DNA from: Sandaracinobacteroides hominis | Lineage (GTDB): Bacteria; Pseudomonadota; Alphaproteobacteria; Sphingomonadales; Sphingomonadaceae | Length of the DNA: 64,000 nucleotides | Direction: 5' to 3' | Assembly: GCF_016464365.1 (NCBI RefSeq) | Contig: NZ_JADCUC010000005.1 | Coordinates: 124,001 to 188,000 of the forward strand | Shown here: piece after piece, positions 47,442-64,000 of the stretch | How the letters are laid out: each line of letters starts with the position of its first letter | Position numbering within the stretch: the stretch's first letter is position 1 | Position numbers and translations under genes: made by a program | Notes under the pieces: model-generated | The model's input: the letters and a program-made list of their open reading frames with translations, nothing else | Database searches by the model: none | What the model was told of the DNA's origin: nothing

Positions 47442-47615
47442 TGCCCGCACTCGCAAGAGCATGAGTTGCCGCACAATTTTGCCTCTGAAGGCAGATTCGC
47501 GACGACCGGTTCAAGCGGGAGATCGATGGGCAAGCATCCTATCGGATCGTCTGGTGGAGGGGGATTTCCAATCTGGCGGCGTTTCCGTAGGGCGAATGAA
47601 ATATGGGGAGCACGC

Positions 47616-49604
47616 GTGTCGGATCGCAACCTGAATTCAGGGGGGCTCGGCAGACTGTCTGGGGCCGCCAGCGCAAATAGCCGCGTCTTCAGTCGAATTG
47701 GCACAGCAACCATGCTTGCAGCCCTGCCACTTTCGGCTGCCCTGCCACTTTCGGCTGCCCTGCCACTTTCGGCCGCCCTGCCACTTTCGGCTGCCTTGGC
47801 GCAAACCGCACCGTCCGCGCCCGTCGTCGGCCCGATAGACCCGGGCCCACGGGCTCGCGGCGAAGCACCCAGCGGGCTCGCCAAGCGATCCCGCAACCAG
47901 ATCGGCGACGCCGACGCCATCACCCAACGCTTCGAGGCGTTCGTGGACTCCGCAGTTGCAGCGCGCGGGCTTGTCGCGACGCCGCTGGAGCCGGGTGGTT
48001 CCTCGCTTTCGCCGGAAGTGGCCGGCAAGCTGTTCTGGTGGGAAGGCAAGATGGGCACGGTGCCCACGCGAGACGCGCCTGTCGCCGGAATACAGCTCGC
48101 AGACCTGCTGCAGCGCGCCACCGCCACGTCGCTGCAGATCGCAACCTTCGCCGAACTCCCCGCCATACGCGATACGTCCATCGCCGAGGCAAGGGGACGG
48201 TTCACGCCCGAATTCTACGCCGAGGGCAAGTCGACCCGGCGCGAGGACGCAACCACCGCGCTCTACCAGACCGGCGGCGATCCGCGCCTGAAGGAAAACG
48301 AGAACAGCGCCGAATTCGGCCTCCGCAGCCGCATCCAGTCCGGCGCTCAGGTGTCGATGTCGCAGCGCTTCTCAGACCTTGAGAGCAACATCATCACCTA
48401 TGTGCCCGATCACCAGTCGCGGTCGCGCACGACGTTCAGCGTCGTGCAGCCGCTGCTGCGCGACAGCGGGCTGGAATATAACAACAGCTTCGAGGAGCTT
48501 GCGGAGCTGGAGACGGAGGCCGCCAAACTGGAATTCCGCCGGCAGGTCGAATCGCACCTGCTCGAAGTCACCCGCACCTACTGGACGCTGTTCCTTGCCC
48601 GCGCCAATCTGGTTCAGCAGGAACGCGCCGTCGACTCCGTCAGCCAGATTTCCCGCCGCATCGAGGACCGCAAGGGCGTCGACAGCCTGGAGCTGCAGCT
48701 GAACCGCGCCCGCGCCACCGAGGCAGAGCGCAAGGCCGGGCTGGTGCGCGCCCGCAACGCCGTCCGCAATGCAGAGGCGCGGCTCCGGGCACTGGTGAAC
48801 GATCCGCAGATGAACGCGGTGGGCGCGGCCGAAATCGCCCCTGCCGACCGCCCCGACGCAAAGGCCACCCCCATCGATCTCACCGCCGATGTGGCAACCG
48901 CGGTCAAGGCTCGCCCGGAAGTGCGCTCGGTGATGATCGGCTACCGCGCCTCGCTGCTGCGCGAAGGCATGGCCGCCAACGAAAGCCTGCCGCAGCTGGA
49001 TCTGGTGCTGGAGGGCAGCCTTAGCGGCGGGCGTGACGGCGTCGCCTACGGTCCCGCCTTCAGCAACGCCTGGTATGGCATGCCCGGCTATGTCGCCGGC
49101 CTCCGCCTTGCCGTCCCGCTCGGCAGCGACGAGCGCAAGGCCCGCTACGATCGCCGCCGGCTGGAAACCTGGCAGCAGGCGATGCAGGCGCGCACCACCA
49201 TCGAAACCGTCATCCTCGAAATGGAAGTAACGGCCAACGAATATGTTGCCGCCTGGAACGATCTGATGCGGCGCGGCGAAGCGCTGCGGCTGGCAACCGC
49301 CGACAACGAACTGCTTGGCAACCGCTATGCCTCGGGCCTTTCCCTCTCCGGCGGCGGCGGCGCTTCCGACGGTATCCTCTATCTCGACCAGCTGCTCGCC
49401 AGCCAGGACCGCGTGGCCAACGCCGAACTCGAGGTTGCGAGCGCGCAGGCCACTTTCCAGGTCGCAAGCGCCGCCCGCGCCCGTGCAAGGGGCACGCTGC
49501 TGGAGGAAAACGGCCTCACCATCGTTCGCGAGGAAAGCGACTCCGGCGCGGACAGGGGCCTGCCTCGCTACCGGGTCGTCAAAACCTCGGCGGCGGTCCA
49601 GTGA
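47616..49604 (+). CDS. TolC-family outer-membrane channel with repeat-expanded signal peptide
   Basis: About 662 residues when started at the GTG at 47616, since GGGGAG lies five bases ahead. A long arginine-bearing n-region leads to a hydrophobic core built from four ALPLSA units and a cleavage-like ALAQTA. The mature part has the OEP helical barrel: DLLQRATATSLQIATF, RTTFSVVQPLLRDSGLEYNN, EFRRQVESHLLEVTRTYW, and a second half from ARPEVRSVMIGYRASLLREG through LGSDERKARYDRRRLETWQQ. It is longer than E. coli TolC (about 470) because of an N-terminal addition. It is the first gene of the operon and overlaps the giant protein gene by 4 bases, which points to a channel dedicated to it. Confidence 0.88.
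   Translation: MSDRNLNSGGLGRLSGAASANSRVFSRIGTATMLAALPLSAALPLSAALPLSAALPLSAALAQTAPSAPVVGPIDPGPRARGEAPSGLAKRSRNQIGDADAITQRFEAFVDSAVAARGLVATPLEPGGSSLSPEVAGKLFWWEGKMGTVPTRDAPVAGIQLADLLQRATATSLQIATFAELPAIRDTSIAEARGRFTPEFYAEGKSTRREDATTALYQTGGDPRLKENENSAEFGLRSRIQSGAQVSMSQRFSDLESNIITYVPDHQSRSRTTFSVVQPLLRDSGLEYNNSFEELAELETEAAKLEFRRQVESHLLEVTRTYWTLFLARANLVQQERAVDSVSQISRRIEDRKGVDSLELQLNRARATEAERKAGLVRARNAVRNAEARLRALVNDPQMNAVGAAEIAPADRPDAKATPIDLTADVATAVKARPEVRSVMIGYRASLLREGMAANESLPQLDLVLEGSLSGGRDGVAYGPAFSNAWYGMPGYVAGLRLAVPLGSDERKARYDRRRLETWQQAMQARTTIETVILEMEVTANEYVAAWNDLMRRGEALRLATADNELLGNRYASGLSLSGGGGASDGILYLDQLLASQDRVANAELEVASAQATFQVASAARARARGTLLEENGLTIVREESDSGADRGLPRYRVVKTSAAVQ
47721..47792 (+). repeat. 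Four 18-bp tandem repeats inside the signal peptide of the TolC-like protein
   Basis: The unit GCCCTGCCACTTTCGGCT is repeated four times head to tail (47721-47738, 47739-47756, 47757-47774, 47775-47792), with one base different in the third. Each encodes ALPLSA. Copy-number change by slippage would lengthen or shorten the hydrophobic core in steps of six residues without a frameshift. Confidence 0.95.
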
Positions 49605-52600
49605 ACGCCTTCACCCGCCACATGCGCAACGCGCTGAAGGCGGGCGCCTCGTTCCTCAATCCGGGGCTGACGCCCGTGCCGGCACCCATGGACGCCCGCC
49701 GCTGGCTGATGGACGCGGTGATGCCGCTCGAAGATCGCATCATGCTCGATGCGGAGCCGGTAGCGACCATAGCCCCCGCCTCGGGCTTGCCCGAAGTGCT
49801 GATCGGAAGCAATTTCGTCCTCGACATCACCTTCGACAACATCCCCGATGGAGATCCGGGGAGCAACGTCGGCTATGGCCCCTATGTCGATCTCTACATC
49901 CCGCACCTGGGCAAGGACGGCGGCAACAGTGATCCGACCGACGGCGTCGATTTCGTCGGCGCCACCTATCTGGGCGCTTCCGTGCAATCGACGCTCCTCA
50001 CCTTCGATGCGAACGGCCAGGCCACGCACCCCTTCGCCAGGGACAGCAGTGGCCAGTTTCGCGTGCTCACCGGCGCTCCGGGCGATCAGGTTGTCGTGTT
50101 GCGCCTGCCATTCGGCAGCTTCACGCCGGGGCAGCCGGCCGTCACCATCGCCGCGGAATTCCAGCTCTCGCCGCTGGCGGATTTCGCCCCGGATTTCAGC
50201 AGCGCCGATCTGGAATTCTCCGCGCAAGGCGGCTTTGCCCTCGGCCGCGATCCCAACAACAATCCCACCGTCGATCCGCCAATCCTGCAGCCGGTTCCCG
50301 ATAGCCAGACCATAACGCCGATCCTTGTCGGGCTGACGAAGACATCGGACGCGCCAAGGGGCGAAACGGCGACCGGCCCCAATTTTGTCCACACCTACAC
50401 CATCGATGTGAACGTCGCGCCGCAGCAACAGATCCAGAATCTCAACGTCACCGACATCCTGTCGTCGAACATCGTTTTTCTCGATGCAACGGTCACCAGC
50501 GGCGGCGGCACGATAACCACCCAGCCCACAGCCGGCTCCGTCGTCACGCCGGGTCTCGATCAGCTCATCGTCAATTTCGGCAGCATCACAGGCACGGCCG
50601 GTGTCGACGCGCAGATTCAGGTGCGCTTTTATGTGAACGATGTTTCCGGCGACGGCGGCCAGCCCGTCCTCGATCCGGATTCAGGAGCCTCCTCGGTCAC
50701 GCTGAACGATGTGAAGTCCGAGGGCACCCACATCCCTCTCGATCCGCGCGATCCGCAGCAGCAGTTCACCCAGGATCTGCTTCCGGTGGACAACAGCATC
50801 GTCAACCGCTCGATCGCCATGCGCAAGGACGTTGTGATCGTTGAGGACAGGAACGTCGCCGGCCTCTCTCCGGGCGACGTGCTGGAATACACGCTGCACG
50901 TTGACCTCTCCGATTATTTCTCCTTCGGCGACATCGTCATCCAGGACATTCTTTCCCGCGGCCAGCAGCTCGAAGGCAGCTTCACTCCCCACCTGACGCT
51001 GACGGAGAGAGGCGTCACCACGCAAGCGGATTTCACCGGAAACGTTCAGGTGGGCGACCAGTTCGTCGGGCCGAACGTCAACATGGTCTATGACAGCGTA
51101 ACCGGCCTTACCACCATCAACTTCGACGTTTCCGGCGAGATTGAGCTGCAGAACCTGTCCGGCGGCGACGGCGTCATCGAAGGCGGGCGCACCCATCCCG
51201 GCGACGCCCTGCTCGGTGTCGGCCCCACAATGGCACTGCTTACCTTCCGCACGGTGGTGCTCTCCTCCGCGCCCGACGGACAGGGCGGCACCGTTCCCAT
51301 CGACCAGGGCGACCGGGTCGGCAATCGCGCGACGGTTCAGGCAAACGTCTATCCCAATGGCAATCCGGCTGGCCCGCCCACAGGACAGCAGACCGACGAC
51401 GATACGGCATCCATCCGGATCCAGACCGGCGCGCTGTCGCTGAAATCGGTGGTCGCGGTGAACGGCGACACCGATCTTTTCCTCGGGCCGAATGGCATGC
51501 CGCAGGTCACCCAGGGCGATACCATCACCTTCCGCCTGCAATATGTCCTGCCGACAAGTTCGGTCACCAATTTCAATCTGGTCGATTTCCTGCCCCTTCC
51601 GGTGCTCACAGCGCAGAATCTCACCTTCATTCCCGAAGGTACGATACCGGCCGAGGGGGAATTCACCTTCGGCCCGCTGGACAGCTTCAGCGATCTCACC
51701 AACGCGCCGACGCCCACCGTCACCTTCGATACCGACGCCAACGCCATCCGCTTCAACTACGGCACCTACAGCTTCCAGGATCAGGCGCCCGGCAACCAGC
51801 CCATCACCACCGTCATCGATCTGCTGCTCACGCTACGCGTAAACGACATGTCCTATGGCGACGGCCTCCTCCTCACCAACCTGCTGCAGGGCACCGAAAG
51901 CAACAGCGAGGGCGAACAGACGATCACCAGCGTCATCGCCCAGTTCGAGGTGGGCGAGGCGGACATTGTCATCGACAAGGGCGTCGTCGATTTCGCCGGC
52001 AACAGTGCCGGTTCCTTTGTCGGCAGCAGGCAGCCCAGTGGTGTCTCCTTCGATGGCGCGGCTGGCAACACGTCGCCGGCAGTATTCACCGGCCTCATCA
52101 CCGACGCCGCGCTCGCTACTGGCCTGATCGACGCCGACCTCACCGGCGTCGACGCCGGCGACAAGGTGACCTTCGCCATCACCGTCAACAACAATGGCGC
52201 CGGCATCCGCGGCGCCTTCGACGTCACCATCAAGGACCTGCTGCCAGACGGCTTTGAGATTCCCGCCGACGCCGCCGGCCTCAACCTCAAGGTCACCTAC
52301 GGCGACGGCACCAGCGTCGCCTACACCGATCTGGGCGGCGGCCTTTTCGGCAACGGCATCCGGCTGGTCGACGGCGTGGACGGCGCACTCGCCGCGGATC
52401 CCGCGAAGGGGCAGGGCGGCACCACCACCAACGACATCGTCATCATCACCTATGATCTGGTCGCAACCGCCGCCGTGCAGCCGCGCCAGGTCTGGACCAA
52501 CACCGCCAGCGTCGACCATTTTGCCGGCCAGGAAGGCGGCAACAACCTAGTCTTCAATCCCATCACCGACGACGCCTCCGTCACCATCAGCCCCGTCACC

Positions 52601-55600
52601 GCCACCAAGGTGCTGCAGAGTACGTCGGAAAGCTTCACGCCCGGCAGCGACCTCGCCATCGGCGAAGTCGCCACCTTCCGCCTCACCTATGTCCTGCCAG
52701 AGGGTCAGACGCGCGGCCTCGTCCTGTCGGATCTGTTGCCGCTCGGCGCAGGCGGAACGCTCGGCAACGTCAGCGCCAGCATTGTCTCGGTCGGCGGCGC
52801 GATCAGCGGCGCAGGCGTTCCGCCCGCCGGCAGCTCCATTGCCTTCGACAGCGGAACGCACAGCTATATCGCGACCTTCGGCGATGTCAGCGTCAACTCC
52901 GGCAGCACGGAGGCCGACCGCACCATCGTGATAGAGGTAAACGCCCGGGCTTCCGACGTGGTCGAGAATGTCCGCGGCCTCACGCCATCGAACCGCGCCG
53001 ACGCAAGATATGTCACCACCAATCAGGATGGCAGCACCGACAATTATCTGGAAAGCGCGCAGGTCGGGGTCCGGCTGGTGGTACCCGATCTGTCGATCGC
53101 CAAGACTGCGAACCCCACGACGATCGTCGAGGCGGGGCAGATCATCACCTACTCGCTCGTCATCAGCAATCCGGCAAACGCCGCCGGCACGACGGCCTTC
53201 GGCCTCAAGATGACCGATTCCGATCTTGCAGCGCTCGGGTTCACGAACATCACCATCCAGAGCATCGTTTCGAACGGTGCCACAAACGCCGACGCCGTTG
53301 CGGATGCCGCCGGTGTCGTGACCGTCACGGCCGACAGCCTGGACAATGGCGGCCTGATAACGGTTCTGTTCACCGTGAAATCCTCGCCGACCCTTTCGGC
53401 AGGCGCCGTGCTGGTAAACCATGCGACGCTCGATCCCTACACCACGCTCGCCGCCACCAGCCCGGATTTCGCCACCGCCCGCATACTCACCGAAAGTCCG
53501 GTATCGGCGCAGGTCCAGCTCGAAGGTGCGGGCCTCACCAAGACCATCTTCACCACTTCGGTCGGCAACGATACCAGTCCGCTCGTCCAGATCGGCGAGT
53601 TCGTGACGTTCGATCTGCGCATCACCCTGCCGGCCAGCGTCACCCCGGTCACCCTCAGCGATTTTGCCCCCGCCGGCCTGGTCCTGCAGTCCGCGCAGCT
53701 CATCTCCATAGGCGGGCAGACCGCAGCCGGCGCGACATCCGGAGGCAATATCACCGGTTCGCAGGTTGCCGTGGGCGACACGGCCACCGTCGCGGGCAAC
53801 GCGTTCACCTTCAATTTCGGCACGCTCACCATAGCCGAGGACGGTATGTTCGCCATTTCCGAGGCCGACATCATCACCGTGCGGGCGATTGCCCTGGTGG
53901 CGGATGTGCCCGGAAATGTCGGCAAGACCATCGCCAACCAGACGTCCCTCGTGAACAACGCCTCCGTCAACTTCGGAATCGGCACCACCAACGCCTCGTC
54001 GACGGTGCAGGTGGTCGAGCCGTCTCTCACGCTCCTGAAACAGGGTAACCGCCCCAACATCCAGGCGGGTGAAACAGAGACCTACACCGTATCGGTCACC
54101 AATACGGGCCTGGGTACGGCCTTCGATCTGATCCTCAGCGATGTTCTCAATCCAAATCTGCTGCTCACGGGGCTCATCACCGTCGAGGGGCCATCGGCCG
54201 GCGCGGCCGTGGGCAGCTACGCTTCCTTTGCCGATATTCCGCCCATCACCCTTGCCGGCAATGGCGCCGCCTTCACCGTCACCTACTCGGCGGTGGTTCA
54301 GGATGCCGCCTTGCTCGGTTCCGGCATCCCCAACGTCATCAACGCCAGCTTCGACAGCCTCCCTGGCGCAGGCGGCCGCGCAGACAGCGGCTCGTCGCAG
54401 TTCGTCATCAACATCACCGGTCCGTCCACTCTCACAAAGGAAGTGATCTGGACCTCGATCAACGCCGACGCAGACACCAACGTGCAGATCGGGGAAATCG
54501 TCGAGTTCCGCGTGGTTGCCACCATCCCCAACGGCACCACCAACCTGCAGCTTTCCGATACCCTGCCCAGCGGCCTGCAGCTGGTGGCCGGCTCGGTCGT
54601 GCTCGAAAGCTTCCTCGGCGACACCAACTACCAGAGTTACACGCTGGACACGGTGGGGCAGACGACCACCCTCGATTTCGGCACCATAACCAACCCGGCC
54701 GCCAATTCCGACGACACGATCGTGTTTACCCTGCGCGCAACCGTGCAGGACATCATTGGCAACGTGAACGGCACCGTGCTGCTGAACAGCGCCCAGGTAT
54801 GGCCGCTGCTGCTGTCCCCGGTGGTCGGCACGGCCAGTGTAACGGTCATCGAGCCCGATATTCGCGTGAACAAGATCGAACTTTCACTGAACCGTCAGGC
54901 GGGCGAAGTCGCCTTCTATCTGGTCGAAATTCGCAACCTCGGAACCGGCACCGCCTTTGACCTCACCATCACGGATCCGCTCGCCCCGGAGCTGGCGCTG
55001 GTGCCGGGCTCCATCGAAGTCCGCGGCGCCGACGCCGGCAGCGCCGAGGGCACCTACAACAGTTTCAGCGACATCCATGTCGATCACCTGGTCGCCGGCG
55101 GCGATTTCACCATCACCTACCGCGCGACCGTGCTCGATACCGCCCGGCTTGGCAGCACCATCGTCAACACGGCGACCGCCTATTACGACAGCCTTCCGGG
55201 AGAGGGCGACGTCGGCCGCGAACCCCTCGTTCCGCCCAGCGACCAGGCATTCATCACCGTGAGCGGGCCGGTCAGCTTCGACAAGACCATCCTCACCACC
55301 AGCATCGGCAACGACGCCAATCCCGATGTGCAGATCGGCGAACGTGTCACCTTCCGCATGGTCGCCACCCTGCCCGACGGCACGACCAACCTGAACTTCA
55401 ACGATACGCTCCCTTCCGGCCTGCAATATGTAGTCGGCAGCTTCAAGGCGATCTCGATGTTCGGCGCCGCGCCGCCGGCGGGAACGCTGACGGAAGGGCC
55501 GACCGTCTCCATCCAGTTCGGGCAAATCACGAACCCGTCCGCCAATCCCGACAACACGGTCGTGCTGGAAATCCAGGCCATCGTCATGGATGTCCCCGGC

Positions 55601-58600
55601 AATATCGCCGGCACAATCCTCACGAACGATGCCGACGTGACCACCAACCTCGGTGTCGTCGCCGACACCCGGGATGTCCGGATCGTCGATCCCGTGCTGA
55701 CCGTCGGCAAGTCCGCTCTGGTCAACGGCGGGCTCAATGGCGATGCGGGCGATCTCGTCACCTATACAGTCGTCGTCGCCAACGACACGGCGGTCTCCAC
55801 CGGCGTCGCCTATGATTATGTTTTCGCCGACGTTCTACCTGCCGGGGTGCAACTGGTGGGTACGCCTGCCCTTTCCGGCAGCGCCGCCGCCGGGGCGACG
55901 CTCGATCTCAGCCTGCCGAACACCGTCCGTGTCTCCGGTGACAGTATCGCGCTGGGCGATACGCTCACCATAATCTACACCGCCCGCATCATCGACACCG
56001 TGCAGGTGCCCAGCAGCATCACCAACACGGGCGACATCGGATACGACACGCTGCCCGGCGCAGGCGGCGCTGACCGCACCGCCAGCGACGACGCCACCAT
56101 CTTCATAACCGGCGATCAGGCCTTCGTGAAAACCATCGTCGCCACCGACAACCCAACTACCCATGCCGAGCAGTTCGATCCGACCGTGGACGACGTCACC
56201 ATCGGCGAAACCGTCACGTTCAACCTCGTCGCAACCCTCCCCGAAGGCGTGATCGGCCCGGTGATCCTCACCGATAGCCTGCTTTCGCCGGCCGGTGTCG
56301 GTACCCTCGCGCCCGTCGCCGGCAGCTATACGGTTACCCTCAACGGCAGCACCACCGCCATCACCCCGACGCTCACCGACACCAACGGCGACGGCATCGC
56401 CGACAGCCTGACCTTCGATTTGGGCACGGTGACGATCGACCCGGACAACGATCCGGGCAACAACGACATCGTCATCAGCTACCAGGCAATCGTCCCCGAC
56501 GTGGCGGCGAATTTCGCCGGCCCGGGCCGCGTGCAGGTGCAGGGCGCCAGCCTCTCCACGCCGCTCGGCACGCTGGGCGCCGGAACCCGGCTCGAAGTCG
56601 TCGAGCCGAAGCTGCAGGCGGTCAAGACCGCCAACGTCACCAGCGCCCAGCCCGGCGACATTGTCACCTACACCGTTACCCTGCGCCACACCGCCGATTC
56701 CACGGCCGCGGCCCAGGATCTCAACTTCACCGACCTGTTTGCAGGCGGTCAGCTGGTCCTCGTCCCCGGCTCGATGGTCATATTGTCTGGCCCCGGCACG
56801 GCAGGCGTCAACAGCGTCGATATCTCCACGCTGCTGCTCGGCGAGGAAACCGTGATCCGGTATCAGGCGATCCTGCAGCCGGTCGCGCCCGGCACAGTTG
56901 TCACCAACACGGCAGTCGCCGATTTCGACAGCCAGCCCGGCAACGGCGGCCGGCCCGACACCGCAATCGACAGCGTCGACGTCACCGTGCCCGGCTTCGT
57001 GAAGGCAATCACCGACACCAGCAATCCTGACACCGGCAACATCCAGTTCACCCCCGGCGCCCCCGATCTCACCATCGGCGAAACCGTCACCTACACACTG
57101 ACCGTCACCCTTGCCGCTGGCGTCACCAACGTCTCCATCGCCGACACCTTGCTCGGCGTCGGCAGCACCGGCCTGCTGCAGCTCGCCGCCACCCCTGCCA
57201 TCGCCTTCGGCACGGGCGTCACCGCCAGCATCCCCAACCCGGTGCTGCAGGAAACAGACACCAACGGCGACGGCCGCACCGACGCACTCGGCTGGAATTT
57301 CGGCACCGTCACCAACAGCAGCGGCGCCGCCTCCACCCTCACCATCACCGTCGTCGCCCGCGCCCAGGATATCCCGGCCGACGCCATCCCTGTGGGCAAC
57401 GGCGCCGGCGATATCCTCCTGCTCCCGGCCACCTTCAACTACGGCTCCGGCACCATCGCGTCCTCGATCATCGTCGACATCGTCGAGCCCGATCTCGGCA
57501 TCGCGAAGACGGTGGACGTAACCGAGGTCGATGCCGGCGATCCGCTGACCTACACGGTTGTTCTCACCAACAACGGCACCGCGCCGGCCTACAATGTCGA
57601 CCTCACCGACATCCTGCCGCCGAATGTCAGTTTCACCGGCGCCCCCGTCACCGTGACCGGCGCTTTCAACGGCATATTCGCCAGCCTCGATGCCGTCGCC
57701 ATCGCCCGCCTGATGCCCGGCGAAAGCGTCACCGTCACCTATCATGCCATCGTCGGGGACGGCGTTTCCCCCGGCGACGTCCTGCCGAACAGCGCCGGTG
57801 CGGAAACCTCCAGCCTGCCGGCAGATCCGGAAGCGCGCGACTATATGGTTGGTCCGGTCGTTGCGCCGGTCACCGTCGTCGGAGATTACACGCTCACCAA
57901 GGAGATCGCCGTCGCCGGCACCTCGCTGGTCGATACGGGCGAGGCGGCAGTCCGCCCAGGCATCACCGACCTCGCCATCGGTGAACGCGCGACAGTGGTC
58001 CTCACCATAGGCCTTGCGGAAGGCACGGTGAATCAACTCGTCGTAGAGGACCTGTTGGCCAGTGGCGGCGCCCAGCTCGGCCTGCTTCCGGGCAGCATCA
58101 CCGCCACGCACGACGGCGCTGATGTGCCTGTCACCATCCTCGAAATCGACGACAACAACGACGGCGTCACCGATCGCATCCGCTTCGATTTCGGTACCTT
58201 CATCAACCCCGGCGACAACGACCTGACCGACAATGCGATCGTCATTACCTACACGGCAATCGCCCTGAACCGGCCCGGCAACAGCTCGGGCGACCAGCTC
58301 GATCTGCCCGCCACGCTGACCTGGTCGGTTCCGGCGAACCCTGACAACCAGCAGAACGCGAGCGCCGGCGTCGACCTCGTCGAGCCCGGCCTCGTCATCG
58401 ACAAGAGCTTCACGCCGTCCACCGGCGAGGCCGGAAGCCTCATCTCGTACCGCCTCACCATCGGCAACAACGGCCTCGGGCCGGTCTATGATCTCGGCAT
58501 CACCGATCTCGCCGATCCCGGCCTCAATCTCGTCAGCGGCTACACGCTTACGCAGGGCGGCGTGACCACCACCGTAACGTCGCTGGCAGACCTGCCGCTG

Positions 58601-61285
58601 CTCCGGCTAATGCCGGGCGAAACCGTAACGGTGGATTATGTTCAGCAGATCGGCGACTCGCCGCTCGTCGGCTCCACGCTGGTGAACACCGCCACCGTAG
58701 CCGGCGACAGCCTGCCGGGAGTCGACCCGGACGAGCGCGACGCCGTTCCCGCCAGCGACACGGCCGCGATCACGCTGACGCCGACGGTGCCGGTGCAGAT
58801 CACCAAGTTCATCCCTGTCCCCAGCACCGACGATCCCAACACCAACGCCGAACAGTTCCGCCCCGACATCACCGATTTCACCATCGGCGAAAGCGGCGTC
58901 GTCTTCCTCCAGGTCACGCTGCCCAAGGGCACTACCGGCGATGTCGTCGTCACCGATGCGCTGGCGTCGCCGGCAGGCCTGCTGGGCTTCAAGCCGGGAA
59001 CCGTGATCGCTTCGCTGGGCGGCGTGGTGCTGGATCCCGCCAGCTACACCGTCACCGCGATCGACAGCGACGGCGATCTGCGCACCGATCAGCTGCGCTT
59101 CAACTTCGGCGATATCGTCATCCCGGGCAGCGTCGATCCCAGCCTGCACACGCTCGATATCCGTTATGGTGTGCAGGTGCAGAACCTGCTGCGCAACCAG
59201 CCCGGAGACATGCTCGATCTGCCCGTGCGGCTGGATTATGTCACGGCATTGGGCGCCGCCGCGCAGCTCACGGCGCAGTCGGGCGTCGACATCGTGCTCG
59301 GCAGCCCGGTCACCATGAAGCTCTCCGTCAAGTCCGAAGGCGACAGCGGCAGCCTGAACGGCATCGGCCCCGCACCGGGCGACCTCAGCGGCACCGCCGG
59401 AGACATCTTCACCTATACGCTGCACATCCAGCACACGGATCGCGCCACCGGGCCCGCCTATGATCTCTCCGTGCGCGATATCCTGCCCGCCGGGCTGGAG
59501 CTGATCGCAGGCAGCGCCTCTGTCGACATCGCCGGCGCCACGCTAACCACCGGCGCGGACGGCCTCGTCGTCACCTTGCCGCAGCTGCTCCTCGATCAGA
59601 GCTTCAATATCACCTATCAGGCCCGCATCACCGACGCCACGCTGTGGAACACGGAACTCACCAACGAGGTCTATCTCGATTTCGACAGCGCCGCCGGCCC
59701 CGGCGGCCGCCCGGGCGGCAGCAGCGACAGCTTCACCATCGAAAGCTTCGGCGAAGCGACGATCCGCACCGACATTGTTTCAACCGACAATCCGAACTCA
59801 GGCGTCGGCGCCGTGCAGCCCGGTGTCACCGATCTCGGCATCGGCGAACAAATCGTCTGGCGCCTCACCACCACCCTTAACGAGGGCACGACAGACAGCT
59901 TCATCGTCACCCACCGGCTGCCATCCGGCGCCAACGGCGTGATCTCTATCGAATCCATCGCTGCCCCGGTGCTCGGCGCCGGCATCACCGCCGAACGCGC
60001 CAACCCGAATGCCCAGCTCAGCGACACCGACGGTGACGGCATCGCCGACACCATCGTCTGGGATTTCGGCCGCGTCACCAATGCCGGCGACAATATCATC
60101 GATGCCCGCGACACCATCTCCATCGACGTTGTCGGCCGCGTGCCCGACGATCCGCGCAACGTCCAGGGAGACATCCTCGACACCGGTTCAGAGGTCGATT
60201 TCGGCACCGCAACCGGCCCTGGCTATGATGTCTCGGGCGTTCCCGTCGCCATCGTCGAATCCGCCCTCGTCATCGACAAGACGGTTCCCCCCGGCGACAT
60301 CCTGCCCGGCAACCTCATCCCCTATACCATCCGCGTCAGCAACGCCGACTATGCCCTGCTGGCCGCCTCCGACATCGTCATCACCGACCTGCTGCAACCC
60401 GGCCTTACGCTGGAAGGGCCGATCACCATCGTCAGCGGCCCGGAAGGCACGGTCGTCAACGGCACCACCGTCACCACCCCGCTGTTGCCGCTGGGGCAGG
60501 AGGTCGTCATCACCTACAGCGCCCGCCTCGCCTTCGATCTCGATCCGACCCAGCCCGTCGTCAACACGGCGGTTGTCACCTGGGACAGCCAGCCCGGCAA
60601 CGGCGGCCGCCCCGGCGAAGCGACCGACAGCGTCGTGATAGACCTGCTGATCCCGCCGCCGCCCACCCCGAACAGCATCGACGAAGGGGCAAGGCAGTCG
60701 GTCGAGAACTGGATCGCCCGCCGGTTCATCGAGGTTCCCACCACCACCCTTTACAGCGGCGCGGCCCAGCCGGGCGCCCGTGTCGTCGTGCAGATCCAGG
60801 ACGCGCTGGGCGGCGGCGCCCAGATGGCAGCCGCCACGGCAGATGCCGGCGGCAACTGGATCGTCCGCGCTTCAGGCGTCACCGCCTCCAGCAACCACAG
60901 CGACTATTCGATCGAGGATTATTTCGCCTCCACCCGGCTGTTCGCTTCCGCCGATCCGATGTTCCACGATCATCCGGATTGGGCAGAGGACGCACGCAGC
61001 TTCGCCGTACCGATCGGCACCCACGCCTCGCTCATCTCGCGGCCGATCACCCTCGTAGCTACGCAGCCGGCATGGGCACTGCCCGGCTCCGACGGCGACC
61101 CCATCCGCCTTTTCTACGCCCCCGGCCAGCAGGGCCTGTCCTTTGCCAGCGAAGGGCTGACCATCGACAAGGTCATGCGCGAAGCCGCCTCGGCCGCGGT
61201 TGCAGAGGCGTTCGCCCGCGATCAGGGCGGCATGGCAGCGCTGAACCGGTTCAACGCCCACTCGCTTGGCGCCGGCACGAACTGA
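49601..61285 (+). CDS. Giant DUF11-repeat surface protein (3,894 residues) with N-terminal LEDRIMLDA motif
   Basis: A giant protein without a Sec signal: residues 1-40 (FTRHMRNALKAGASFLNPG onward) lack a hydrophobic core. Residues 43-51 read LEDRIMLDA, resembling the LEPR-x-LL/LDA N-terminal motif of large exported repeat proteins. The bulk consists of DUF11/isopeptide-D2-like beta domains. From about residue 1,160 the boundary motif VVEPxL-x-x-K and its variants recur about every 300 residues, near residues 1159, 1470, 1748, 2027, 2332, 2627, 2926, 3230 and 3550. The C-terminal 200 residues include an Ig-like segment (YSGAAQPGARVVVQIQDA) and a different end. No RTX nonapeptides are seen. The GTG start overlaps the TolC-like stop by 4 bases. 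A surface adhesin or biofilm role is inferred. Confidence 0.88.
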   Translation: MNAFTRHMRNALKAGASFLNPGLTPVPAPMDARRWLMDAVMPLEDRIMLDAEPVATIAPASGLPEVLIGSNFVLDITFDNIPDGDPGSNVGYGPYVDLYIPHLGKDGGNSDPTDGVDFVGATYLGASVQSTLLTFDANGQATHPFARDSSGQFRVLTGAPGDQVVVLRLPFGSFTPGQPAVTIAAEFQLSPLADFAPDFSSADLEFSAQGGFALGRDPNNNPTVDPPILQPVPDSQTITPILVGLTKTSDAPRGETATGPNFVHTYTIDVNVAPQQQIQNLNVTDILSSNIVFLDATVTSGGGTITTQPTAGSVVTPGLDQLIVNFGSITGTAGVDAQIQVRFYVNDVSGDGGQPVLDPDSGASSVTLNDVKSEGTHIPLDPRDPQQQFTQDLLPVDNSIVNRSIAMRKDVVIVEDRNVAGLSPGDVLEYTLHVDLSDYFSFGDIVIQDILSRGQQLEGSFTPHLTLTERGVTTQADFTGNVQVGDQFVGPNVNMVYDSVTGLTTINFDVSGEIELQNLSGGDGVIEGGRTHPGDALLGVGPTMALLTFRTVVLSSAPDGQGGTVPIDQGDRVGNRATVQANVYPNGNPAGPPTGQQTDDDTASIRIQTGALSLKSVVAVNGDTDLFLGPNGMPQVTQGDTITFRLQYVLPTSSVTNFNLVDFLPLPVLTAQNLTFIPEGTIPAEGEFTFGPLDSFSDLTNAPTPTVTFDTDANAIRFNYGTYSFQDQAPGNQPITTVIDLLLTLRVNDMSYGDGLLLTNLLQGTESNSEGEQTITSVIAQFEVGEADIVIDKGVVDFAGNSAGSFVGSRQPSGVSFDGAAGNTSPAVFTGLITDAALATGLIDADLTGVDAGDKVTFAITVNNNGAGIRGAFDVTIKDLLPDGFEIPADAAGLNLKVTYGDGTSVAYTDLGGGLFGNGIRLVDGVDGALAADPAKGQGGTTTNDIVIITYDLVATAAVQPRQVWTNTASVDHFAGQEGGNNLVFNPITDDASVTISPVTATKVLQSTSESFTPGSDLAIGEVATFRLTYVLPEGQTRGLVLSDLLPLGAGGTLGNVSASIVSVGGAISGAGVPPAGSSIAFDSGTHSYIATFGDVSVNSGSTEADRTIVIEVNARASDVVENVRGLTPSNRADARYVTTNQDGSTDNYLESAQVGVRLVVPDLSIAKTANPTTIVEAGQIITYSLVISNPANAAGTTAFGLKMTDSDLAALGFTNITIQSIVSNGATNADAVADAAGVVTVTADSLDNGGLITVLFTVKSSPTLSAGAVLVNHATLDPYTTLAATSPDFATARILTESPVSAQVQLEGAGLTKTIFTTSVGNDTSPLVQIGEFVTFDLRITLPASVTPVTLSDFAPAGLVLQSAQLISIGGQTAAGATSGGNITGSQVAVGDTATVAGNAFTFNFGTLTIAEDGMFAISEADIITVRAIALVADVPGNVGKTIANQTSLVNNASVNFGIGTTNASSTVQVVEPSLTLLKQGNRPNIQAGETETYTVSVTNTGLGTAFDLILSDVLNPNLLLTGLITVEGPSAGAAVGSYASFADIPPITLAGNGAAFTVTYSAVVQDAALLGSGIPNVINASFDSLPGAGGRADSGSSQFVINITGPSTLTKEVIWTSINADADTNVQIGEIVEFRVVATIPNGTTNLQLSDTLPSGLQLVAGSVVLESFLGDTNYQSYTLDTVGQTTTLDFGTITNPAANSDDTIVFTLRATVQDIIGNVNGTVLLNSAQVWPLLLSPVVGTASVTVIEPDIRVNKIELSLNRQAGEVAFYLVEIRNLGTGTAFDLTITDPLAPELALVPGSIEVRGADAGSAEGTYNSFSDIHVDHLVAGGDFTITYRATVLDTARLGSTIVNTATAYYDSLPGEGDVGREPLVPPSDQAFITVSGPVSFDKTILTTSIGNDANPDVQIGERVTFRMVATLPDGTTNLNFNDTLPSGLQYVVGSFKAISMFGAAPPAGTLTEGPTVSIQFGQITNPSANPDNTVVLEIQAIVMDVPGNIAGTILTNDADVTTNLGVVADTRDVRIVDPVLTVGKSALVNGGLNGDAGDLVTYTVVVANDTAVSTGVAYDYVFADVLPAGVQLVGTPALSGSAAAGATLDLSLPNTVRVSGDSIALGDTLTIIYTARIIDTVQVPSSITNTGDIGYDTLPGAGGADRTASDDATIFITGDQAFVKTIVATDNPTTHAEQFDPTVDDVTIGETVTFNLVATLPEGVIGPVILTDSLLSPAGVGTLAPVAGSYTVTLNGSTTAITPTLTDTNGDGIADSLTFDLGTVTIDPDNDPGNNDIVISYQAIVPDVAANFAGPGRVQVQGASLSTPLGTLGAGTRLEVVEPKLQAVKTANVTSAQPGDIVTYTVTLRHTADSTAAAQDLNFTDLFAGGQLVLVPGSMVILSGPGTAGVNSVDISTLLLGEETVIRYQAILQPVAPGTVVTNTAVADFDSQPGNGGRPDTAIDSVDVTVPGFVKAITDTSNPDTGNIQFTPGAPDLTIGETVTYTLTVTLAAGVTNVSIADTLLGVGSTGLLQLAATPAIAFGTGVTASIPNPVLQETDTNGDGRTDALGWNFGTVTNSSGAASTLTITVVARAQDIPADAIPVGNGAGDILLLPATFNYGSGTIASSIIVDIVEPDLGIAKTVDVTEVDAGDPLTYTVVLTNNGTAPAYNVDLTDILPPNVSFTGAPVTVTGAFNGIFASLDAVAIARLMPGESVTVTYHAIVGDGVSPGDVLPNSAGAETSSLPADPEARDYMVGPVVAPVTVVGDYTLTKEIAVAGTSLVDTGEAAVRPGITDLAIGERATVVLTIGLAEGTVNQLVVEDLLASGGAQLGLLPGSITATHDGADVPVTILEIDDNNDGVTDRIRFDFGTFINPGDNDLTDNAIVITYTAIALNRPGNSSGDQLDLPATLTWSVPANPDNQQNASAGVDLVEPGLVIDKSFTPSTGEAGSLISYRLTIGNNGLGPVYDLGITDLADPGLNLVSGYTLTQGGVTTTVTSLADLPLLRLMPGETVTVDYVQQIGDSPLVGSTLVNTATVAGDSLPGVDPDERDAVPASDTAAITLTPTVPVQITKFIPVPSTDDPNTNAEQFRPDITDFTIGESGVVFLQVTLPKGTTGDVVVTDALASPAGLLGFKPGTVIASLGGVVLDPASYTVTAIDSDGDLRTDQLRFNFGDIVIPGSVDPSLHTLDIRYGVQVQNLLRNQPGDMLDLPVRLDYVTALGAAAQLTAQSGVDIVLGSPVTMKLSVKSEGDSGSLNGIGPAPGDLSGTAGDIFTYTLHIQHTDRATGPAYDLSVRDILPAGLELIAGSASVDIAGATLTTGADGLVVTLPQLLLDQSFNITYQARITDATLWNTELTNEVYLDFDSAAGPGGRPGGSSDSFTIESFGEATIRTDIVSTDNPNSGVGAVQPGVTDLGIGEQIVWRLTTTLNEGTTDSFIVTHRLPSGANGVISIESIAAPVLGAGITAERANPNAQLSDTDGDGIADTIVWDFGRVTNAGDNIIDARDTISIDVVGRVPDDPRNVQGDILDTGSEVDFGTATGPGYDVSGVPVAIVESALVIDKTVPPGDILPGNLIPYTIRVSNADYALLAASDIVITDLLQPGLTLEGPITIVSGPEGTVVNGTTVTTPLLPLGQEVVITYSARLAFDLDPTQPVVNTAVVTWDSQPGNGGRPGEATDSVVIDLLIPPPPTPNSIDEGARQSVENWIARRFIEVPTTTLYSGAAQPGARVVVQIQDALGGGAQMAAATADAGGNWIVRASGVTASSNHSDYSIEDYFASTRLFASADPMFHDHPDWAEDARSFAVPIGTHASLISRPITLVATQPAWALPGSDGDPIRLFYAPGQQGLSFASEGLTIDKVMREAASAAVAEAFARDQGGMAALNRFNAHSLGAGTN
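53075..60660 (+). repeat. Array of about 300-residue DUF11-type units in the giant protein
   Basis: Nine boundary motifs (VVPDL, VVEPS, VIEPD, VDPVL, VVEPK, VEPDL, VEPGL, VLGSP, VESAL) recur with spacings of roughly 311, 278, 279, 305, 295, 299, 304 and 320 residues. Each unit has a TGLGTAFDL-like half, an INTAxxxxDSLPGxGG edge and a QIGExVTFR/IGExVTF half. Units are diverged rather than identical, so this is an old tandem array. Confidence 0.8.
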
Positions 61286-61292
61286 CCTATCG

Positions 61293-63356
61293 ATGGATGC
61301 CGCCGCGCCGCGCCGCGCCGCGCAACTCAGCGTCAACCGCAGCCTGTTCCGGGGCAGGGTGCGCTATGTCGTCAGCGCACCCCTCGCCGGCGCTCACATA
61401 TCGCTCAACCCCGAAAGCTACCGGCTGCTTCAGCGCATCGATGGCGAAACCAGTCTCGATGACCTGATCGCCGACCCGGCGCCCGGCCTGCCGCCGCCGG
61501 CGCTTCGCGAACATGTGCTGCAGCGTCTCGTCGCCGCTCGTCTTGTCGAACTCCCCGGCCAGCCCGCCGCGCCGCGCCCTACCGGCCCGGCCGAGGGAAG
61601 AATCCTCTTCTTCCGCCGCGAACTCGTCGACATCGCACCGTTGATGCCCGTTGTGAACCGCCTGTTCGGCTGGATGTTCACCCGCGGCGGCCTCATCGCC
61701 TTTGGCCTTGTCGTCCTCGTCGCCCTGCTGCGCTTCCTGGATGGCCGCGCCGATTCCCAGCCCTTCGCCTGGCTCAGCCAGCTCGCCGCCGGCGAAGCGC
61801 TGATGCTCTGGCTGTTCTTCCTCCTGCTGAAGGGTGCGCACGAGCTTGGCCACGGCCTCGCCCTCTGGCGCATGTCCGCGGCAGAGGGCAGGGCCGTGCA
61901 ATCCATCCGCGCCGGGCTGATGGTGATGCTGGTGATGCCCTTCCCCTTCACCGACGTCTCGGCCGCCTGGAAACTCTCCAGCAAGTGGCGCCGCGCGGCA
62001 ATCGGCTGCGCCGGCATGTATGTCGAAATCTGGATTGCGGCGCTTGCCCTGCTGCTCTGGAGCTTCACCAGCTCCGAAGTGCTGCGCACAATCTGCATCC
62101 AGGTGGCGACCGTTGCCGGCGTCACCACCCTGTTGTTCAACCTGAACCCACTTGGTCGCATGGACGGCTATTATGTGCTGGGCGATCTCGCCGAACGCCC
62201 CAATCTGCTCGGACAAGCCTCGCAGGCCGCCAACGCCTTTGCAGCCCGGCTGTTCCGCGTCAGTCCGCAGGCAGCCGCCACTCCACCCGATTGGCCGATG
62301 CTCCTCTACTGGCTCGGCGGCTACAGCTATCGCGTGCTGGTCTTCGTCGGCATGGCCTGGCTGGTGCACGACTTCGCGCCTGCGCTATCCATCGTCATCC
62401 TGCTGATCGCCTTTTCGCTGCTGATCGTCCGTCCGGTGCACGCCACTGCCCGTACGCTGATCGCGATGGCGCCTGAACCGTCGCCCGTAAAGCGCAAGCT
62501 TTGGATCTCGGCCGCCGTCGCTGCGGCCGTGGCGCTGTTCCTGCCGCTCCCTGCGGGCGTTCCGGCATCCGGCCTTGTCGAACTGCCAGCCTCCACGCTC
62601 ATCTATGCGCCGCGCGACGCCCGCCTGCTCGCCGTCGCCCCTGCCGGCCGCGCCGCTGCAAACACCCCATTGCTGCTCCTCGAATCTCCGGACGCAACCG
62701 AGGACCGGGCCATTGCAGCGGCCCGGCGCGAAGCGGCCGTCATCACCTGGCGGCGCGCCGCCGATACCGGCGCCGGCGGCACCCAATCTGCCGCCGAACA
62801 GGTGCAGCGCCTCGATACCCAGCTCGCCGCACTCGACAACGAAGTCGCCCGGCTGGAAACGGTTTCAGAAGCACCGGGCCGCTTCGATCCGCTCGATTCC
62901 TCCAGCTACGCCGGCGGCTGGGTGAGCATCGCCCGCGACAAGCCGCTGGCTGTGCTGCAGCGCGAAGGCCCGGCTCGCCTGCACCTGCTCGTGGCAGAGG
63001 ATCGCATCGGCAGCATCAGCCCCGGCGACCGTGTCACGGCCCGCATATGGGGCAGGCCCGGCCAGTTTCGCGCCACGGTAGAGCGTGTTGGCGAGCGCAT
63101 CGTCGATCTGCCCAGTGCCGCCCTGGGCCGGGGAGCAGGCGGCAGCATCGAAACCCGCCCCGACGATCCTAAGGGCAAGGCGGCTGTCGCCTCGCATGTC
63201 GAATTCTGGGCCAGGCCCGATGCCGATGCGCCACCGCTGTTCATGGGGCAACGGATCGAGGCGCGGATCGGCCAGCCGCCGCGACCGCTCGCCTGGCAGC
63301 TCGGCGCTGCCGCGCTCCGCCTGCTGGACGTGCGGGCCCAAAGACAAGATGGATAG
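61293..63356 (+). CDS. PqqD-like / M50 site-2 protease / HlyD-like membrane fusion protein
   Basis: A 687-residue multi-domain protein. Residues about 30-90 are PqqD-like (SLNPESYRLLQRIDGETSLD), a domain used elsewhere to bind peptide substrates. Membrane helices follow with the zinc-protease site HELGH at 183-187 (GAHELGHGLALW) and the second metal motif NPLGRMDGYY at 285-294. After further helices (VLVFVGMAWLV, LSIVILLIAFSLLIVRPV) one last helix at about residue 410 leads to a barrel and coiled-coil part (TLIYAPRDARLLAVAPAGRA, QVQRLDTQLAALDNEVARLE) like HlyD adaptors. The start ATG at 61293 lies 7 bases past the giant gene stop. Substrate handling or cleavage of the giant protein is inferred. 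Confidence 0.87.
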   Translation: MDAAAPRRAAQLSVNRSLFRGRVRYVVSAPLAGAHISLNPESYRLLQRIDGETSLDDLIADPAPGLPPPALREHVLQRLVAARLVELPGQPAAPRPTGPAEGRILFFRRELVDIAPLMPVVNRLFGWMFTRGGLIAFGLVVLVALLRFLDGRADSQPFAWLSQLAAGEALMLWLFFLLLKGAHELGHGLALWRMSAAEGRAVQSIRAGLMVMLVMPFPFTDVSAAWKLSSKWRRAAIGCAGMYVEIWIAALALLLWSFTSSEVLRTICIQVATVAGVTTLLFNLNPLGRMDGYYVLGDLAERPNLLGQASQAANAFAARLFRVSPQAAATPPDWPMLLYWLGGYSYRVLVFVGMAWLVHDFAPALSIVILLIAFSLLIVRPVHATARTLIAMAPEPSPVKRKLWISAAVAAAVALFLPLPAGVPASGLVELPASTLIYAPRDARLLAVAPAGRAAANTPLLLLESPDATEDRAIAAARREAAVITWRRAADTGAGGTQSAAEQVQRLDTQLAALDNEVARLETVSEAPGRFDPLDSSSYAGGWVSIARDKPLAVLQREGPARLHLLVAEDRIGSISPGDRVTARIWGRPGQFRATVERVGERIVDLPSAALGRGAGGSIETRPDDPKGKAAVASHVEFWARPDADAPPLFMGQRIEARIGQPPRPLAWQLGAAALRLLDVRAQRQDG

Positions 63357-63362
63357 ACCTGT

Positions 63363-64000
63363 ATGCGTTTGCTGATTCCCCTTGCGCTGTTCATGATCGC
63401 GCCCGCCACGGCGCAGACGCCGCCAAAGCCAGCGCCCGCAAAGACCATTGCCACCCGCCCGGCTGCCGGCCCGCTCGCCGTGCCGGCGGTCTTCACGGCT
63501 GAACGGACCGCGGTGCTGAAGGCAGGGGCAGACGGGCGGGTGATTTCCGTCGGCGTCGCCGAAGGCGCGCAGGTCAAGGCCGGCACCATCATCCTGAAGC
63601 TCGATGACCGCGAACAACGCGCCCGCGTGTCGCTTGCGGCGCAGGCAGCCGGCTCCAGCGCAGAGGCGCGCTCGGCCAGCGTTCGCGCGCAGGAAGCAAA
63701 CGCCCGACTCTCCAGCGTCAAGGCAGCCGCAGCCAAGGGCGCGGCCACCGATTGGGAAGTACGCCAGGCCACCGCCGCCGCTGCGCAGGCGCAGGCAGAC
63801 CTCCGCATGGCGCAAGACAGGCAGTCCATCGAAGGCAAGCGGCTCGGGCTCGAGCAGACCGTGCTGGATTCCTACATCGTCCGCGCCCCCTTCAACGGCC
63901 GCGTCACCCGCCTCAGCGCCCGCACCGGCTCCACCGTGCGCAAGTCGGATTCGGTCGCCACCGTCGTCGATATCGGCACGCTCCGCGCAGAGGCCTATGT
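63363..64000 (+). CDS. HlyD-family periplasmic adaptor, 3' end outside the window
   Basis: The first 212 residues of a membrane-fusion/adaptor protein. A signal peptide (RLLIPLALFMIAPATAQT) comes first. The beta-barrel/lipoyl half-motif GRVISVGVAEGAQVKAGTII follows, then a long alanine-rich coiled coil (SSAEARSASVRAQEANARLS) and the second lipoyl half (YIVRAPFNGRVTRLSARTGS). Adaptors of this kind link an inner-membrane transporter with TolC. It starts 6 bases after the M50 gene and belongs to the same operon. The partner ATPase or pump, if any, should lie beyond the right edge. Confidence 0.9.
   Translation, partial: MRLLIPLALFMIAPATAQTPPKPAPAKTIATRPAAGPLAVPAVFTAERTAVLKAGADGRVISVGVAEGAQVKAGTIILKLDDREQRARVSLAAQAAGSSAEARSASVRAQEANARLSSVKAAAAKGAATDWEVRQATAAAAQAQADLRMAQDRQSIEGKRLGLEQTVLDSYIVRAPFNGRVTRLSARTGSTVRKSDSVATVVDIGTLRAEAY

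Follow-up and report, generated by a model that had tools for sequence, protein, structure and literature searches.

A five-gene operon of Sandaracinobacteroides hominis as a candidate dedicated export and processing route for a giant DUF11 protein

A stretch of 64,000 nucleotides from Sandaracinobacteroides hominis (GCF_016464365.1, contig NZ_JADCUC010000005.1; C17:124001-188000, hereafter the window) ends in an operon that encodes a giant protein of 3,894 amino acids (aa). The operon is probably a dedicated route for the export and processing of this giant. It consists of five + strand genes separated by 4-bp overlaps or gaps of 6-7 bp: a TolC-like channel, the giant, a PqqD-M50-HlyD fusion, a short HlyD-type adaptor and a GAF-HlyD protein. 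The genome (3.53 Mb, 21 contigs) is listed as 100% complete. A preliminary description of the window had proposed a dedicated exporter, possibly distinct from type I secretion. This is supported by the lack of a type I secretion ATP-binding cassette (ABC) transporter in the genome and by the co-occurrence of such fusions with giants carrying the LEPR-XLL motif; processing would be the task of the fusion, as its protease motifs and predicted fold suggest.

The operon and its giant protein

The features of the operon are listed below. Positions with the prefix L006 follow a locus numbering that runs past the window edge (L006:8209 corresponds to window-equivalent 64208), and residue numbers of the fusion refer to P0003, counted from the TTG at 61266.

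47616..49604, + strand: TolC-like outer-membrane channel (OEP, PF02321); GTG start at 47616, alternative TTG at 47466
49601..61285, + strand: giant 3,894-aa DUF11/isopeptide-domain protein, presumed cargo; acidic
49727..49753, + strand: LEPR-XLL-type motif LEDRIMLDA, giant residues 43-51, presumed leader or recognition element
61293..63356, + strand: PqqD-M50 (site-2 protease)-HlyD fusion, presumed to act as protease, leader receptor and inner-membrane component; from profiles and predicted fold
61302..61562, + strand: domain of the fusion resembling PqqD and the RiPP (ribosomally synthesized and post-translationally modified peptide) recognition element (RRE), residues 13-99
61839..61853, + strand: HELGH zinc motif of the fusion, residues 192-196
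62145..62174, + strand: NPLGRMDGYY, second metal-binding motif of the fusion, residues 294-303
62544..63305, + strand: HlyD/MacA-like adaptor domain of the fusion, residues 427-680
63363..64208, + strand: short HlyD-type adaptor, 281 aa (the window ends at 64000; L006:7364-8209)
64205-65929 in window-equivalent numbering, + strand: GAF-HlyD, 574 aa, fifth gene, wholly past the window (L006:8206-9930)

The tight + strand arrangement of the first four genes, as given in the preliminary description, was recovered with all four open reading frames (ORFs) present. The TolC and giant genes overlap by 4 bp, 7 bp separate the stop codon of the giant from the ATG of the fusion (61293), and 6 bp lie between the fusion and the short HlyD gene. 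The latter overlaps the GAF-HlyD gene, which runs in the same direction, by 4 bp. The domains earlier assigned to TolC, the giant, the fusion and HlyD were upheld, those of the fusion by both profiles and predicted folds.

The giant is built of units of about 200-250 aa, and its domain matches over cut-off are PF01345 (DUF11, 224 bits), TIGR04226 (268 bits) and TIGR01451 (254 bits). It contains no cysteine and has 425 acidic versus 145 basic residues. The first 100 aa hold no Sec-type hydrophobic stretch (the highest 19-residue Kyte-Doolittle mean is 1.15, against 1.63 in the whole protein), and GGxGxD repeats of the RTX (repeats-in-toxin) type number zero, which bears out the earlier statement that the giant has neither a Sec signal nor RTX repeats. 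Lacking these and any cysteine, the giant fits export in an unfolded state. Its LEPR-8K score is 13.9 bits on the whole protein and 20.1 bits in a six-frame search (cut-off 17).

The TolC-like protein matches PF02321 with E=9e-15 (55.4 bits, cut-off 22). Its signal peptide contains four head-to-tail copies of ALPLSA (window 47721-47792); the repeat unit is 18 bases long, so a change in copy number would keep the reading frame. HlyD-type membrane fusion proteins were identified in the operon by profile and by predicted fold. The GAF part of GAF-HlyD rests on the predicted fold, and Pfam shows no GAF domain in this protein.

LEPR giants as the likely cargo

The module probably has as its cargo giants whose N-terminus carries a LEPR-XLL motif. 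LEPR-8K was searched in 40 hand-picked module genomes, comprising 12 of the 13 carriers found in the class and 28 of the 80 loci from a scan of named genomes. A match in a frame of at least 1000 aa was found in 33 of them. In 28 it exceeded the cut-off; in the other five (G028, G289, G290, G291, G296) the motif was read in the sequence. In 25 of the 40 the LEPR frame shares a contig with the fusion, at a distance of 2.4 to 41.6 kb. The seven genomes with no LEPR frame of at least 1000 aa are G050, G070, G091, G109, G147, G295 and G316; G050 has the motif, in a frame of 530 aa on a contig 6.7 kb long. The co-occurrence raised in the preliminary description was thus found, and it also appears in a sample of 289 genomes of the class, where LEPR-8K matched at E<=0.1 in a frame of at least 1500 aa in 7 of 13 fusion genomes versus 2 of 276 others. 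Neither of these two exceptions is genuine: the G169 match is an internal stretch with no LE.R motif, and the G231 frame is antisense to a conserved gene. The G070 match is discarded for the same reason as that of G231 (we take the conserved gene to be of the nuoF type in both), the G283 match is antisense to a likely RND (resistance-nodulation-division) pump gene, and a LEPR pattern match inside the TolC of G175 was judged to be due to chance.

In the clade of the window, homologues of its TolC and giant adjoin in G289, G290 and G291. In G291 this pair and the M50-HlyD-GAF-HlyD genes are convergent. The pairs of G289 and G290 are located on another contig, although in L043 of G289 the module is met by a convergent DUF11 end. 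The association of the module with LEPR giants is seen in loci of Proteobacteria, Verrucomicrobiota and Nitrospirota. The longest LEPR open frame has 14,158 aa (G317:C1:3701230, Verrucomicrobia bacterium IMCC26134). Apparently three separate modules are present in G299 (L118), where C1, C2 and C5 each carry one secondary SecA and one LEPR open frame of about 12,500-12,900 aa.

The putative leader motif was found by pattern in 31 of the 40 fetched stretches, in most cases no more than about 65 residues from a possible start. In sequence it differs between the exporter clades. By a hand-made list, the residue after the LL/MF pair of LEPRxLL is D in 9/9 sequences of a second clade lacking SecA, in 3/4 of the window clade and in 0/27 of the clade with SecA. 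Excluded from this count were three G294 giants (two with D), five Planctomycetota sequences (L086 and four of G303 and G304; one with D), a second G290 LEPR frame (D), a leader-like motif in a 469-aa frame of L046 (S), and six pattern-negative frames, five of which read as A or S while the sixth (G070) is antisense.

Several points limit the case for giants as recognized cargo. The class-sample comparison (Fisher p=1.9e-9) overstates the case, because both thresholds were set after the list had been seen and three of the seven positive genomes belong to one genus. LEPR-8K at E<=1 also matched 7 of 14 control genomes, with one match over the cut-off; bare matches with weak E-values are frequent, and what counts is the frame-length filter together with the motif as read in the sequence. 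Finally, the D/S split follows the clades, which makes common descent an alternative to recognition.

The PqqD-M50-HlyD fusion

The PqqD, site-2-protease and HlyD parts of the fusion were found by profile and by predicted fold. The predicted folds are an RRE (a winged helix of the RiPP leader-binding type), a site-2 protease and MacA; the N-terminus is thus predicted to fold like a RiPP leader-binding domain. The fold searches were dominated by adaptor domains, so that the absence of other folds carries no meaning. Pfam Peptidase_M50 scores below its gathering threshold (16.0 vs 27.2 bits), and the best NCBIfam match, the daptide protease NF041824 (113 bits), is below its cut-off of 300. The site-2-protease motifs HExxH and NPxxxDG are intact in the fusion of the window. 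HExxH is kept in 91/91 fusion homologues, nine of which have HExAH or HExFH instead of HE.GH, and this makes an inactive pseudo-protease improbable. Together with the predicted leader-binding fold, the conservation of HExxH suggests that the fusion processes its substrate.

Distribution of the module and search for an ATPase

In a protein search, 13 of the 289 class genomes proved to have the fusion, the window's own included. A 34-row profile detected it in the same 13 only (G070, G109 and G193 by partial matches). The A2 profile (E<=1e-15) matched 105 of the 289; beyond the 13, the matches listed cover only adaptor positions ~390-651. Within the family of the window the fusion is present in 7 of 249 genomes, again counting its own, so the distribution is patchy. 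The scan of named genomes took 80 of 561 relatives, including Pseudomonadota, Planctomycetota, Verrucomicrobiota, Fibrobacterota and Nitrospirota.

Extending the sequence past position 64000, as had been suggested, revealed the second HlyD-type adaptor and no adjacent ABC ATPase. The nearest ABC_tran match on the contig lies ~60 kb past the operon (C17:249674), one of 33 in the genome. Nine longer ABC frames were scanned by family, and TIGR01842 was searched genome-wide, giving 41 matches, all below the cut-off. Membrane domains are fused to the ABC in only two of the proteins found, and the nearest models for both are of the MsbA type: one exceeds the TIGR02204 (MsbA_rel) cut-off and the other has MsbA_lipidA as its best match, below cut-off. 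For both, TIGR01842, TIGR01846 and TIGR03375 are far below their cut-offs. Genome-wide, nothing exceeds the curated cut-offs for type I secretion ABCs, in agreement with the earlier observation that no ATPase is visible and with the suggestion that the route may be distinct from classical type I secretion. With PF07517 (SecA_DEAD), one canonical SecA and no secondary SecA was detected in this genome.

Across a tree of 96 fusions, a local SecA-like gene occurs at 55 loci and none at 41, at some of them since the contig ends. The presence of SecA changes 10 times on this tree (7 changes are forced by well-supported branches) versus 31.2 in shuffles. Two clades, the six rows of the window's clade and a second of 16 rows, have a local SecA in 0/22. 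The support for their union is only 53, by which it is neither shown nor rejected.

SecA was counted in 31 genomes with PF07517 at an author-set threshold of >100 bits. Weak partial matches of <40 bits went uncounted; some of these pass the family cut-off, including those of G294, G295, G297 and G301, and the G297 match (38.5 bits), on the contig of that genome's second LEPR frame, may be a degenerate module SecA. All 31 genomes have a canonical SecA; the count is one in 20 of them and at least two in 11. In the two clades lacking SecA, 15 of the 16 genomes tested have a single, canonical SecA over the threshold (six rows of these clades fall outside the count). The exception is G296, a Nitrospira metagenome-assembled genome with three. 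Inside the SecA clade, G292, G293 and G294 (L091, L107, L119) possess canonical SecA only.

Among the module SecA-like proteins in frames of >380 aa, 49 of 51 keep both GK[TS] and DE. The remaining two (L050:12019-13809 and L106:12345-13880) lost the Walker A and B motifs and give weak Pfam SecA matches; the genome of L106 has no other second SecA. Modules thus fall into three kinds: those whose SecA is intact, those whose SecA-like protein lacks the ATP-site motifs, and those that have no SecA.

ORFs with an ABC signature motif were noted on 7/91 module contigs (L070:3396-5375, L091:4605-5384, L096:18466-19518 and four G contigs). In L045 a SapC-family gene (PF07277, 184 bits; L045:11905-12663) is located between the M50 fusion and HlyD, and ORFs read as SapC-like occupy the corresponding place, after the M50 fusion and before the next gene of the module, in L051, L058, L072, L110 and L118. 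In the window genome SapC is on another contig and so is not part of the operon.

Surroundings of the operon

The next long ORFs downstream are on the opposite strand and were read as an M20-type peptidase, a cation exchanger and an S8 autotransporter-like protease. The last of these (L006:12491-15616, - strand), the third gene after the operon, might have surface proteins as substrates. The G+C content of the three operon genes measured (0.65-0.69) does not stand out from that of the window (0.658). PADLOC gave nothing relevant to a defence system, with one match of TolC to JetC (16 bits).

Discussion

The five genes would form a two-membrane export route dedicated to one cargo, the giant. 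The RRE-like domain of the fusion may bind the N-terminal LEPR leader, after which the site-2-protease core would cut the leader off and help the unfolded, cysteine-free chain through the inner membrane. The HlyD domain of the fusion and the two HlyD adaptors would connect to TolC, and the chain would fold outside into a long DUF11/isopeptide rod. Because no dedicated ATPase was found, we infer that the energy could come from the proton-motive force and folding outside, or from canonical SecA on loan. The further-reaching version, in which no dedicated ATPase is used at all, can only be put forward tentatively. Here the RRE-site-2-protease-HlyD fusion would read and remove the LEPR leader and, with TolC, export giants by proton-motive force and outside folding; in other clades SecA would have the part of an accessory, subject to gain, loss or conversion into a pseudo-ATPase.

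The M50/HlyD/GAF-HlyD core is already known and is not new here. Secondary SecA_DEAD proteins were described by Kamneva, Poudel and Ward 2015 (PMC4452313) at loci that also encode M50-HlyD, HlyD and GAF-HlyD, with no cargo or role being known; the authors suggest that SecA_DEAD is the ATPase and that M50 forms the pore. The operon of the window resembles the loci described there in its M50-HlyD fusion, separate HlyD, GAF-HlyD, an OEP (sometimes present in those loci) and the absence of an ABC transporter. It differs in lacking a secondary SecA, both in the operon and in the genome, and in the cargo proposed, a LEPR giant; in the portion of that text examined, none of the words LEPR, giant, adhesin and PqqD appears.

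The main rival to a dedicated route of this kind follows from that work: export would be driven by SecA, genomes with no module SecA would use the canonical one, possibly with SecYEG, and the M50 fusion would be a platform for processing and adaptor functions and not a pore. The frequency of local SecA-like genes, their mostly intact Walker motifs, the canonical SecA in every genome searched and the published suggestion (PMC4452313) all speak for it. However, the giant has no recognizable Sec signal, two module SecAs lack an ATP site, and two whole clades have no SecA beside the module. We consider a SecA-driven route possible, if rather doubtful.

It is also improbable that the M50 fusion and HlyDs are an envelope-stress or small-molecule efflux unit which merely neighbours an adhesin exported by other means. 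The operon adaptors do score best against RND/MacA-type drug-efflux models, and a GAF domain suggests sensing, but the five operon proteins have no Pfam match to an RND, major facilitator superfamily or ABC pump, and the association with LEPR giants spans three phyla.

Type I systems consist of ABC, HlyD and TolC parts and use a C-terminal signal; RTX repeats are usual in their cargo, though not universal. An ordinary system of this type with a distant ABC ATPase, which the HlyD and TolC parts and the 33 ABC_tran matches might suggest, is very improbable and was rejected, as the only two fused ABCs are MsbA-like and type I models score far below cut-off. The operon proposed here as a dedicated route shares HlyD adaptors, TolC and a very long repeat cargo with the type I secretion of giant RTX/LapA-type adhesins, but it has no ABC ATPase or RTX repeats, and its presumed signal is N-terminal.

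The fusion is similar to the EpeP/DapP-type M50 leader peptidases of RiPP systems in its M50 core and RRE-like domain. Unlike these, it is fused to a HlyD adaptor, its presumed cargo is a 3,894-aa protein and not a peptide, and it scores below the daptide cut-off. EpeP offers a precedent, as an M50 protease thought to both cleave and export, although its deletion did not fully abolish the product, according to a review (PMC10885120).

As in LEPR-XLL (NF012209) giants, a motif of the N-terminal LE[PDQ]RxLL type precedes a very long repeat region in the giant of the window; in its LEDRIMLDA, D takes the place of the S that predominates in giants of the SecA clade, and the domains after the motif are of the DUF11/isopeptide kind. 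A LEPR-XLL protein of ~8000 aa is mentioned in PMC10868602, with no export route given in the passage concerned, and the term also occurs in PMC9611531. The literature searched, which lay outside preprints and most subscription papers, contains no account of LEPR giants as cargo. New here are LEPR giants as likely cargo, the forms of the module with no SecA, SecA-like proteins with no ATP-binding motifs, the predicted leader-binding fold and the clade-specific leader motif.

Very large bacterial proteins, with LEPR frames of up to 14,158 aa and no export route stated in the literature searched, are now tied to one module, and a likely leader and a likely leader peptidase can be named for them. 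How a protein thousands of residues long might traverse two membranes with no motor of its own thereby becomes testable.
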